Source: Buttiauxella gaviniae ATCC 51604 (lineage in GTDB: Bacteria; Pseudomonadota; Gammaproteobacteria; Enterobacterales; Enterobacteriaceae). From it: a DNA stretch of 64,000 nucleotides. Both the position numbers and the translations under genes were made by a program. Location: assembly GCF_001654835.1 (NCBI RefSeq), contig NZ_LXEP01000007.1, positions 1 to 64,000 on the forward strand. The letters are read 5' to 3'. The notes under the pieces were generated by a model, which saw only the letters and a list, made by a program, of their open reading frames with translations, searched no databases and was not told where the DNA came from. Positions 222 through 53,552 of this stretch are shown here, in pieces (position 1 is the first letter of the stretch; every line of letters begins with the position of its first letter).

Positions 222-2192
222 TCAGAACCCGTAATCCACCGCCATAAAGTAACGACGACCATCTTCGTTGTAACTGTAATCGTCACGACTCAGATCTTTA
301 TCACCCAGGTTCATTACCCCGGCACGTAACTTAACGCTCTTCGTCACCTTCCACGCAGCACCGGTATTCCACACCACATAGCCGCCAGGCGTTGGCTCGC
401 TGCTGGTTGTGGCACGCTGCTCGCCGGTATAGTTGGCGGAAACGTAGAATGACCAGTCATCCAGCGGCACCCAGTCCAGGGTACCGTTGGCTGTATGGAA
501 TGGCAGAGACGACAGCGGTTTATTGCCGCCGCTACTCAAATCTCGTCCATCGTTATAGGTGTAGTTCAGCGTCAATTTCCACCGATCGCTAAACGGCACC
601 TTCACTTCGGTTTCCACGCCGCGAATACGCGCTTTGTTGACGTTGTAGTATTTGAAGATTGGGTTGCCCGCACTGTCAAAACCCACAAAGTTAGAGTAGG
701 ACGGGGCTTGCGCGCGGTTAGACGTCCGGTTGATATCAATCATATCTTCCAGGTTGTTCTGGAAGGTGGTGATACTGCCGCTCACGCCGTCCAGCAGACC
801 TTCGTCGCCCGCGTAGTACAGCCCCAGCTCGAAGCTTTCGCTGGTTTCCGGTTTCAGATCCGGGCTGCCGACAATCTTACACGAGCCACGGCAGGAGTTG
901 CTGGTCCAGTCCGGGCTTAACTGTAATAAAGAAGGCGCTTTAAACGCCGTCGCCCAGCCGCCTTTGACCGTCACGGTATCTGTCGCGCTGTATACCAGAT
1001 AGGCACGCGGGCTCCAGTGGTCGCCGTAGGTTTCGTGGTCATCCATACGGATGCCGGTAGTCAGCGCCAGCGGTTCGAAAATCCGCCATTCATCTTCGAG
1101 GAACAGCGCGTACTGGCTGGCAGAAGTTTCAGAACTGCTGCCGCCGGTCAGGTTAACCGGGTCAGTCAGTTTATCGTGACGCCATTCCCCCCCGAAGGTC
1201 AGCAACTGGTTGATTTCGCCTAACGGCAACACCAGTTTGCCGTCGAGGCTGTTATTGCGCGAGGTGATTGGCGAGCTGTTGCCCGGATTGAGGTTATCAA
1301 TTTTGTCGCCGTAGAAACGCAGTTCGGTATTGCCGTAATCCCAACGTCCATTGTGGGAAATTGCGTAATCCTGGCGCTCCATGCGGTTTTTATTCAGGGA
1401 GTCAGAATCTCGGTCCTGGCGGTCAAAACCGTAACCAAACGTCATATCCTGATTTTCAGCTGGCGTGAGAGCAAATTCAGCGCTGCCGCTGCGCGTGGTG
1501 AAGCCTTCAATGCGTGGCGTTTCACCCGTGGCGCTGGTACTGGAAGGTTCTTGCTTATCTTTTTCACGCTTGCCGAGGTTACCGTAAACCTTCACCCCAA
1601 GCAGATCATCAACGATCGGGCCGCTGACGAAGAAATTGCTGTTGTAAGAATCACCGCGATCGCGTTTTTCCTGAAGGGTGGTATCCGCCGTCACCGTGCC
1701 GTGCCAGGCCTTACCGACTTTACGGGTAATAATGTTAACCACGCCGCCCAGGGCATCGGAACCGTAGAGCGAGGACATCGGCCCGCGCACCACTTCGATA
1801 CGTTCAATGGCATCGACCGGGATCCAGTTAAGATCGAAATCGTTGTGGCGGAAGACGGCATTGCGCGAGTTCACGCGCTTGCCATCCACCAGGATCAGCG
1901 TGTAGCTGCTGTCCAGGCCACGAATACTCACGCCCTGGCGGTTATCCCCTTCGTTAGTGAGTTGCACACCAGGGACTTCCTGCAGGACATCTTTCAGGTT
2001 CTGGATTGGTTTCTTTTTCAGGTCTTCCTGAGTGATAACGCTAATACTGGCGGGCGCATCTTTGAGGTTCTGCTCACTCGCAGACGCGGTGACAACCACG
2101 GTGTCTTCGTACTCAGAGGCGATAGCGGGATACGCAGCACTGATTATTGACGCGCAAAGTCCTCCCCGGACGATGGGATTCAACCTTAACAT
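222..2192 (-). CDS. cirA: TonB-dependent catecholate siderophore / colicin I receptor
   Basis: Outer-membrane receptor that takes up catecholate iron complexes using TonB energy and is the E. coli receptor for colicin Ia. The protein (656 aa) has a signal peptide ending near AIAS, a TonB-box-like DTVVVTA, a plug domain with the [20 protein letters not shown] block, and a long beta-barrel ending in aromatic Phe (VDYGF). Similarity to E. coli CirA is high throughout. The start was set at the ATG at 2192, matching the E. coli N-terminus and preceded by GGAGAAAGGA; an in-frame ATG 30 nt upstream is less likely. It stands alone, separated from yiaS by about 220 bp with an iron-box-like sequence. 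Confidence 0.96.
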
Positions 2193-2260
2193 TCCTTTCT
2201 CCATGAGGTGAATGGCAAACAATACTTAACCAATAGATTGCGCTCACATTCCTGATGCGA

Positions 2261-2281
2261 CGCCTGCTGCATTGGCAGGCG
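2261..2281. repeat. Short perfect hairpin in the cirA upstream region
   Basis: cgcctgc (2261-2267) and gcaggcg (2275-2281) pair around a 7-nt loop. It lies in the leader or promoter region of cirA, about 70 bp upstream of the start codon. Its role is unknown. Confidence 0.45.
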
Positions 2282-2342
2282 ACTGCACGTTTACTCGCCG
2301 ACTTCCAGCCGGGGTAAAACGTGGCGACACCATAAGATAAAC

Positions 2343-2361
2343 GAGAATAGTTATCAATCAA
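2343..2361 (-). promoter_or_regulatory. Possible Fur box upstream of cirA
   Basis: GAGAATAGTTATCAATCAA shares roughly 11 of 19 positions with the GATAATGATAATCATTATC consensus. Its position about 150 bp before the cirA start, and the known Fur control of cirA in E. coli, favour it, but the match is only moderate. Confidence 0.4.
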
Positions 2362-2413
2362 ATTGTTAAAAATTGTAATATTCGCCATGCCACTCAGGAG
2401 AAAGGTGTTTTAT

Positions 2414-3109
2414 TTATTGACCGTAATAGGCGCTTTTGCCGTGCTTACGCAGATAGTGTTTATCGAGTAATTGCGGCTGCATATTGCCGAGCTGCGGCGT
2501 TAATTGAGTTGAAAACAGCCCCATATAAGCGCACTCCTCCAGCACTACCGCGTTATGCACCGCATCTGCCGCATCTTTTCCCCAGGCAAACGGGCCGTGA
2601 GCATTCACCAGCACCGCCGGAACCTGTAACGGGTCGATGTCCCGCTCAACAAAGGTCTGAATAATCACTTCGCCGGTCTGATGTTCATATTCCCCGGCGA
2701 TTTCTTCCTGCGTCATTAAGCGCGTGCACGGAATGGTGCCGTAGAAATAGTCCGCATGCGTGGTGCCCCAGGCGGGCAAATCACGCCCGGCCTGTGCCCA
2801 GATAGTCGCGTGACGCGAATGGGTGTGGACGATGCCGCCAATGCCAGGGAAACGGCGATACAGCGCCAGATGGGTTGCGGTATCAGAAGACGGTTTTTTG
2901 CGCCCTTCCACCACTTCGCCGCTGTGCAAGTCCACCACCACCATATCTTCAGCGCGCATACCGTCGTATTCCACGCCCGACGGTTTAATCACCACCAGGC
3001 CCCGCTCGCGGTCGATGGCGCTGACGTTGCCCCAGGTAAAAGTCACCAGATGATGCGCCGGCAAAGCGAGATTCGCCTCCAGTACCTGCTGTTTTAGCTG
3101 CTCTAACAT
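2414..3109 (-). CDS. yiaS: L-ribulose-5-phosphate 4-epimerase (AraD/SgbE/UlaF family)
   Basis: Converts L-ribulose 5-phosphate to D-xylulose 5-phosphate, the last step of the yia pathway before the pentose phosphate pathway. The 231-residue length is standard for the family. It carries the class II aldolase/epimerase signatures, including [19 protein letters not shown] and the following THADYFYG block with metal-binding histidines. Its start overlaps the yiaR stop by 7 nt, so the two are probably translationally coupled. It is the last gene of the eight-gene yiaKLX1X2PQRS operon. The paralogs araD, ulaF and sgbE are hard to tell apart by sequence; the name comes from context. Confidence 0.92.
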
Positions 3110-3963
3110 ACGAATCCCCCTTCCTGCATACGTTGTTCAATCCAGCGCCGCGCTTCAATAATTTCCAGCACCGGCTCTTTGGCTTTTTCCGTCCACATTT
3201 CCACCAAAAACGCGCCGCGATAATTAAGCTGTTTTAACGTGCGGAACACGCCAACAAAATCGACACACCCTTCGCCAAACGGCACATCGCGGAATTGCCC
3301 GGCGCAGGTTTCGGTTACGCGCTGCGTGTCTTTGAGATGAATGGCGGCGATGCGGTCGATGCCGAGGGTTAATTCCGCCTGCACGTCATTGCCCCAGGCG
3401 CTCAGATTGCCGACATCCGGGTAAACGCTGAACCACGGCGACGACAGCAACTTGTCCCACTTCTTCCATTTGGTTATCGAATTCATAAATTCGGTATCCA
3501 TAATTTCGACCGCCAGCATCACCTGAGCGCCTGCCGCCTGCTCCACCGCCCACGCCAGACCTTCGGCAAAGCGCTGTTGTGTACCTTCGTCGCGCTCTTC
3601 GTAATAGACGTCGTAACCCGCCAGTTGGATGGTGCGAATACCTAAATCCCGCGCCAGTTTGATGGCCTTACTCATCACCTCACGCGCCCGCTCGCGCACG
3701 GCTTCATCGTGGCTGCCGAACGGGAAACGGCGATGCGCAGACAGGCACATCGACGGGATCGTGACGCCGCTTTCCAGCATCGCTTCCACCAGCGATGCTC
3801 GTTGCGTGGTGCTCCACTCCAGGCGCGCGAGGCGTTCGTCGGTTTCATCAAGCGACATTTCGACAAAATCAAAACCGCAGCTTTTTGCCAGCGCCAGGCG
3901 CTCCGGCCAGGAAAGGTGTTTAGGCAACGCTTTTTCGTAAATCCCTAACGGATGAACTCTCAT
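3103..3963 (-). CDS. yiaR: L-xylulose-5-phosphate 3-epimerase (UlaE/SgbU family)
   Basis: Epimerises L-xylulose 5-phosphate to L-ribulose 5-phosphate. The 286-aa protein is a xylose-isomerase-like TIM barrel; visible signatures are [10 protein letters not shown] near the N-terminus, a central metal-binding Glu region ([13 protein letters not shown]), [10 protein letters not shown] and a late AAIHLKDT strand. Length and order match UlaE. It overlaps yiaQ by 4 nt (ATGA) and yiaS by 7 nt, placing it inside a tightly coupled QRS block. The codons are GC-rich, like the rest of the yia cluster. Confidence 0.92.
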
Positions 3964-52942: not shown

Positions 52943-53302
52943 TTACCTCAATGATTTCACGATGTAAGTGACGACACCAAATATCTCAAGCGCCTCATCG
53001 CTGCCAATGCGAACAGGTTTGTAAGCGCGATTGAGCGGTATTAAATGGATAATGGCCCCGAGTTGTAGCTGCCTGACGATAAACTCGCCATTCATTGCTG
53101 CAATCACAATATCGCCATGTACCGCCGTTATTGCGCTATTGATCACCAGTAAATCGCCATTGCTGATACCACCCTCAATCATCGAATCGTCAGATGCACG
53201 CATGTAGTACGTGGCGGTTGGGTGAATGAACAGCAGTTGGCGAACATCAATGCTCTGTTCTGCATAATCCTGCGCGGGTGATGGAAATGCCCCCACAGTC
53301 AT
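52943..53302 (-). CDS. umuD: UmuD'-like polymerase V subunit, apparently made pre-truncated
   Basis: Accessory subunit of polymerase V. Normal UmuD (139 aa) removes its first 24 residues when RecA filaments trigger a Ser60/Lys97 self-cleavage at Cys-Gly. Here the ATG at 53302 gives 119 aa starting [13 protein letters not shown], nearly equal to mature UmuD' (115 aa). The catalytic Ser remains (SDDSMIEGG, with the preceding Gly changed to Asp), but the catalytic Lys is Arg ([11 protein letters not shown]), and the cleavage pair is Gly-Ala. The frame is open upstream to 53404, but that ATG lies beyond the LexA box, and the only other conventional start, TTG at 53326, has no ribosome site. The ATG overlaps the stop of a short leader. 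Confidence 0.8.
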
Positions 53303-53352
53303 GCTCCATACGTCGTTGATTGGCAAAAAATAAAACGAGTTAGCGGTGCCAT
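53299..53352 (-). CDS. Possible 17-codon leader ORF translationally coupled to umuD
   Basis: An ATG preceded by GTGAGGGAATTT (GAGGGA Shine-Dalgarno) begins 19 nt after the LexA box, exactly where umuD would be expected to start. It encodes [17 protein letters not shown] and stops at TGA, sharing ATGA with the umuD ATG at 53302. It is either a true coupling leader or the frameshifted remnant of the lost UmuD arm. Too short to judge by composition. Confidence 0.5.
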
Positions 53353-53371
53353 AAATTCCCTCACGAACAAA

Positions 53372-53391
53372 TACTGTATATATATACAGTA
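53372..53391. promoter_or_regulatory. LexA (SOS) box of umuDC, perfect palindrome
   Basis: TACTGTATATATATACAGTA is a perfect 20-bp palindrome fitting the consensus CTG-(TA)5-CAG core. It lies 19 bp before the leader ATG, as at the E. coli umuDC promoter. Such a site predicts very tight LexA repression and late SOS induction. Confidence 0.95.
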
Positions 53392-53552
53392 TCGTTAAAT
53401 GCATGGGTCGATCAAGTCACTTGCAGGCAGATTCTTATAACGATTTGAAGACGTGGAGAATTTAATTAGCAGAAAAAGAGCAAGATGAATCGCACCCCAA
53501 ATTTGCCCTACCGCTTCAGTCCTCACCGTTCTATGCTTAGTTGATGGAGAAA

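Follow-up and report, generated by a model that had tools for sequence, protein, structure and literature searches.

RecA-driven cleavage of UmuD is the textbook second lock on the error-prone DNA polymerase V (Pol V). RecA is needed for the cleavage of LexA, and the biochemistry of the E. coli enzyme shows that it is also part of the UmuD'2C-RecA-ATP mutasome. UmuD/UmuD' heterodimers are favoured in E. coli and are turned over by ClpXP. Cleavage of E. coli UmuD typically takes place ~20–40 min into the SOS response (PMC3901139), and the release of UmuC from the membrane requires this cleavage (PMC4552617). A shorter UmuD described as already activated, HumD, is encoded by phage P1 (PMC7092418). 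In the literature searched, including PMC3901139, PMC4552617, PMC7092418, PMC9603915 and PMC11791011, we found no account of a pre-activated UmuD' encoded on a chromosome; this negative result is a weak one, subscription papers lying mostly outside its scope.

We analysed a stretch of 64,000 nt from Buttiauxella gaviniae ATCC 51604 (NCBI RefSeq assembly GCF_001654835.1, contig NZ_LXEP01000007.1, positions 1 to 64,000 of the forward strand), called the window in the following. On its minus strand lies what we take, with a probability of about 80%, to be a chromosomal umuD'C operon encoding Pol V in processed form (Table 1). The LexA box and the tight umuD'/umuC spacing were observed at the level of the sequence. 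The window umuC matched NCBIfam PRK03609.1 with 811 bits over profile positions 1–422 of 422 and is hence a full-length UmuC. The 153-aa open frame containing umuD (P0001) reached 81.6 bits with Pfam PF00717 (cut-off 23.3) and 125.6 bits with the NCBIfam UmuD family PRK10276.1 (cut-off 110); on NCBIfam HumD (NF051876) the window umuD scored 87.3 bits, below the curated cut-off of 120.

Table 1. Features of the umuD'C locus in the window.
Feature	Position	Strand	Remarks
Candidate -35 element TTGATC	53410..53415	-	18 nt upstream of TACTGT; by eye
LexA box	53391-53372		perfect 20-nt palindrome TACTGTATATATATACAGTA; sequence read
Leader ORF, 17 codons	53299..53352	-	GAGGGA Shine-Dalgarno by eye
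Shine-Dalgarno GGAG	53304..53307	-	7 nt upstream of GTG 53296, 1 nt upstream of ATG 53302
umuD' alternative start	ATG 53302	-	119 aa
umuD', 117 aa, likely GTG 53296 start	52943..53296	-	without arm; G58D, K97R, Ser60 retained
umuC, intact, 434 aa	51636..52940	-	starts 2 nt past the umuD' stop

The same short allele adjoins yjiN in ten of twelve Buttiauxella genomes (G000, the genome of the window, to G005 and G008 to G011). This distribution rules out a strain-specific mutation as well as a sequencing error, which the initial annotation of the window had already considered unlikely. Among named genomes the closest locus is that of Buttiauxella agrestis, with 76% identity, followed by that of B. 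massiliensis with 71%. Both genes are intact in eight genomes (G000, G002, G004, G005, G008, G009, G010 and G011). In G001 umuD is truncated and umuC is reduced to a C-terminal scrap, the umuC of the short lineage stops at codon 76 in G003, and umuD'C is absent at the yjiN site in G006 and G007; the operon is therefore dispensable.

A CTG-N10-CAG box precedes umuD' in all ten short-allele genomes, with a diverged copy in G001, and its presence suggests that LexA represses umuD'C in Buttiauxella. The exclusion of a start at 53404 by the initial annotation holds, since this position falls upstream of the palindromic box. Its choice of ATG 53302 was less fortunate. This codon exists and would give the 119-aa form, and we judge it a less likely start than GTG 53296: G002 has GTA and both G004 and G005 have ATA in its place, it stands just 1 nt from the GGAG compared to 7 nt, and the position of GTG 53296 is occupied by ATG in nine of nine relatives. 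For these reasons the window product is probably a protein of 117 aa with the N-terminus fMet-Gly-Ala-Phe-Pro, which is nearly that of UmuD'. The GGAG motif (GGGG in G008) is found 7 nt upstream of the umuD' start in 8/8 leader-bearing genomes, and the start codon lies two codons ahead of FPSP in 10/10 short-allele genomes; by alignment, the likely start is two residues ahead of UmuD position 25. Met-Gly-Ala-Phe is the typical N-terminus, with Gly-Gly in G008 and Ala-Ala in G001 and G003 after the Met. With GTG, the window has a weaker start codon than the ATG of its relatives.

ATG 53352 opens a leader ORF that is not in the umuD frame; its TGA overlaps ATG 53302, and the stop is situated 2 nt upstream of the umuD' start, an arrangement that suggests coupled translation. 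The in-frame leader ATG (~16–17 codons upstream) and the stop are retained in seven of the eight leader-bearing genomes, the ATG being missing in G001 with its truncated umuD. G010 and G011 have no leader ORF, and merely 24–25 nt separate box and umuD' start there. There is little constraint on the leader peptide: in six leaders of equal length the variable columns were distributed over the codon positions as 11, 9 and 11, and pN/pS was 0.64 in frame, with 0.72 and 0.99 for the two alternative frames, which lends no support to strong selection on the peptide.

The N-terminal arm with the Cys/Ala-Gly cleavage site is absent from the short-allele umuD. Full-length UmuD could still be made at the locus if ribosomes shifted frame out of the leader ORF or used a non-ATG start further upstream. 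The umuD frame is open for at least 38 codons ahead of the start in the window, where it runs through the LexA box, as well as in G003 and G009, so that, as far as the stops go, an arm may be hidden in these three; moreover, ATG 53352 is located at an arm-like distance and has a good Shine-Dalgarno sequence. Nevertheless, we regard such a product as highly improbable, because the frame is closed 4 codons ahead of the start in G004 and G005, 5 in G011 and 11 in G008 (21 in G001 and G002), G010 and G011 offer no room for an arm, and the active site is altered regardless. A hidden arm is thus impossible or unlikely in G004, G005, G008, G010 and G011. A frameshift in the arm may have turned the ancestral UmuD start into that of the leader, UmuD' then being made by re-initiation.

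Using phmmer, residues 3–117 of the query were aligned with residues 25–139 of E. coli UmuD (1i4v and 8gmt) with an E-value of 2e-45. These alignments confirm two substitutions that had been noticed before, Arg in place of the catalytic Lys97 and Gly-Ala in place of the Cys-Gly cleavage pair at residues 24/25. A second change in the active site, G58D, had been missed. The Ser60/Lys97 dyad is accordingly not intact: Ser60 is retained in all ten short copies and Lys97 is replaced by Arg in all nine that reach this position. In the core alignment of nine short and 17 full-length proteins, outside of which residues 24–25 fall, G58D and K97R alone separate both groups (9/9 compared to 17/17) at the cut-off used, which demanded a residue common to at least 8/9 short proteins and a different one common to at least 75% of the full-length proteins. 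In these nine proteins the short form and the Lys-to-Arg exchange occur together, a link that the initial annotation had raised as a question. The comparison left out the truncated G001, the prophage protein on contig C3 of the window genome discussed below, and G028, G030, G032, G035, G039 and G020b (no FPSP motif). The five distant full-length-type proteins among these (G028, G030, G032, G035, G039) retain Gly58, Ser60 and Lys97 (GDS and Lys). G020b, from a related genus (L032, contig C1 of G020 at ~798.5 kb), has a HumD-like C-terminal region by eye, with DVA at 58–60 and Arg at 97. Since the arm is missing and the Ser-Lys dyad is altered, no self-cleavage would be expected at the Buttiauxella locus; a residual slow activity on another UmuD in trans is possible. 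In E. coli umuD(K97A) no UmuD' can be made and UmuC release is blocked (PMC4552617), the residue there being Ala and in Buttiauxella Arg.

Both umuD' and umuC are under purifying selection. For 28 pairs from the eight intact genomes (Nei-Gojobori; raw proportions from non-independent pairs) the umuD' core gave a mean pN of 0.130 and a mean pS of 0.551, a ratio of 0.236, and umuC a ratio of 0.141; for three full-length pairs the ratios were 0.16–0.24 (umuD) and 0.11–0.23 (umuC). This selection bears on the view of umuD as a decaying, non-functional gene left by a frameshift in the arm. The leader may correspond to the frameshifted remnant of the arm region, and the losses in G001, where umuD is incomplete and little of umuC is left, and the interrupted umuC of G003 would fit decay as well. 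Decay is nonetheless improbable, considering that both genes are constrained across eight genomes, that LexA box, Shine-Dalgarno sequence, start and umuC adjacency are all retained, and that the fixed core changes sit at the protease site instead of being scattered. Genus-wide conservation, purifying selection and the clean active-site signature together support the original proposal that UmuD is made already as UmuD' under a LexA box and is probably non-cleavable.

A recent mobile origin was rejected, the best phage match (72 records) showing 60.7%; no match above 80% was present among the best 5000 plasmid records. Pattern surveys gave matches in 13 of 392 genomes of the family (15 matches) and in two of 394 genomes of the order, counts that are lower bounds since Met-Ala-Ala starts (G001, G003) are missed by both patterns and GTG starts, the window's own among them, by the order pattern. 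The family matches comprise four of the Buttiauxella allele (G000, G002, G004, G005), two of the form found on contig C25 of G003 and in G282, one in G112 and, by translation, eight short unrelated frames. Both order matches are from Buttiauxella, namely the short allele of G002 and the C25 form of G003.

In a UmuC tree of 31 rows, built without G001, G003 and the G003 C25 fragment, the eight short rows from Buttiauxella group in a single clade (100/99); its placement next to full-length copies from Buttiauxella is moderately supported (90/79). A single origin together with the arm-less forms of G112 or G282 was rejected by AU tests on UmuC (p 0.0005 and 2e-64, respectively), in which the groups were named after inspection of the tree and the G112 branch is fairly long (0.49); P1 has no umuC for this test.

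Further umuD and umuC copies were searched for in the same genomes. The window genome contains two more umuC genes with 78% protein identity to the window umuC, both truncated at codon 27 where their contigs end. These genes (L050 2–1198 and L051 7691–8887) share 88% DNA identity, and each is near a SRAP/YedK-like gene, named by eye. The pair suggests a collapsed repeat hiding a second umuD, and a full-length UmuD may lie in this assembly gap. A DNA search of the assembly with full-length Buttiauxella umuD returned only the umuD'C locus above noise, and a protein search just two weak further matches for a second umuD, one of 34% on contig C25, presumably LexA, and one of 29% on contig C3, a prophage-type protein. 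At ~172.5 kb of C3 (L003 1360–1737, minus strand) an arm-less S24-type protein is encoded (MGFPSPAADYMDGG...), with a LexA-like box ahead of the preceding gene. By alignment it has AEE at 58–60 and Arg at 97, so its dyad is gone; it is probably a HumD-like prophage protein. Beside the contig-end umuC of L050, a reverse-transcriptase-like ORF (1415–3944, minus strand; YADD motif) occurs near a phosphoribosyltransferase-like ORF, a region that we assume to resemble a retron-type defence locus.

G011 carries a full-length umuDC besides the short allele. Plasmid-type umuDC is also present in G002 and G009; in G006 a full-length umuDC occurs at another site, along with a fragment of umuC. At the thresholds used, neither umuD nor umuC was found in G007, and no second umuD or umuC in G004, G005 and G010 (40–90 contigs); G008 (2 contigs) has one umuD (E <= 1e-15), the short form, and one umuC (E <= 1e-20). 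In G003, a second umuC fragment, starting at ~codon 62–65, lies on another contig and shares ~12–15 codons with the first (L039, L040). It adjoins a plasmid-type umuDC whose umuD is arm-less, as if an integrating element targeted umuC and brought a replacement. The copies in G011, and in the window genome if its gap holds one, would allow the short protein to act mainly as a regulator, forming heterodimers with full-length UmuD from elsewhere and tuning that enzyme instead of its own Pol V. We consider this role quite unlikely, as the allele has its own conserved umuC in eight genomes, and at the thresholds used G004, G005, G008 and G010 show no further copy of either gene.

Our preferred reading is the direct synthesis of UmuD'. 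LexA would repress umuD'C until DNA damage occurs. The ribosome would then translate the short leader and re-initiate at GTG/ATG 53296, and the UmuD' resulting from Met removal ahead of Gly would exceed that of E. coli by one residue. Without the arm and with the altered dyad (K97R, G58D), neither UmuD nor RecA*-stimulated self-cleavage would be expected from this locus, and UmuD'2C would form once the operon is expressed, with no cleavage delay and no UmuD-dependent membrane hold on UmuC. LexA control of transcription and RecA in the mutasome would remain. The earlier suggestion that RecA-dependent activation was dropped consequently needs division: judged from sequence, it appears correct for the UmuD-cleavage step; RecA itself remains required, both to have LexA cleaved and in the mutasome. 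The odds are about even that most of the genus runs this Pol V without the UmuD-to-UmuD' switch, with cleavage, delay and membrane hold removed and output set by LexA and the coupled leader ORF; G112 and phage P1 seem to have lost the switch separately, so that it would be discardable in evolution. In most Buttiauxella species examined, the pre-activated form is present, one safety lock of E. coli is apparently lost and the gene pair is kept by selection. The genus thereby provides a natural experiment on the purpose of the UmuD-cleavage lock with regard to timing, UmuC membrane release and damage-induced mutation rate, and supplies cellular, non-phage UmuD' proteins predicted to need no processing.

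Similar to E. coli UmuD/UmuD' (1i4v, 8gmt), the Buttiauxella protein matches residues 25–139, is followed by umuC and stands behind a LexA box; in contrast, it has no arm, carries K97R, G58D and Ala at 25, and is encoded directly in the short form. P1 HumD is likewise arm-less, starts with Met-Gly-Phe-Pro-Ser-Pro and has a LexA-type box upstream. It is, however, phage-borne with no umuC within the 2 kb read, and it has lost Ser60 and retained Lys, whereas in Buttiauxella Ser60 is retained and Lys97 lost. The arm-less UmuD' of G112, another genus of the same family, shares the LexA box, the start MGAFPSPAQ, K97R and an adjacent intact umuC of 423 aa; it differs in having S60A too, and G112 also possesses a full-length UmuD. 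The arm-less UmuD of G282, whose UmuC is of the plasmid type, and that of G003 contig C25, where the 140 nt upstream of the core contain no CTG-N10-CAG box, retain both Ser60 and Lys97. The lineages thus appear to have altered different halves of the dyad after arm loss, as would be expected if self-cleavage no longer mattered.
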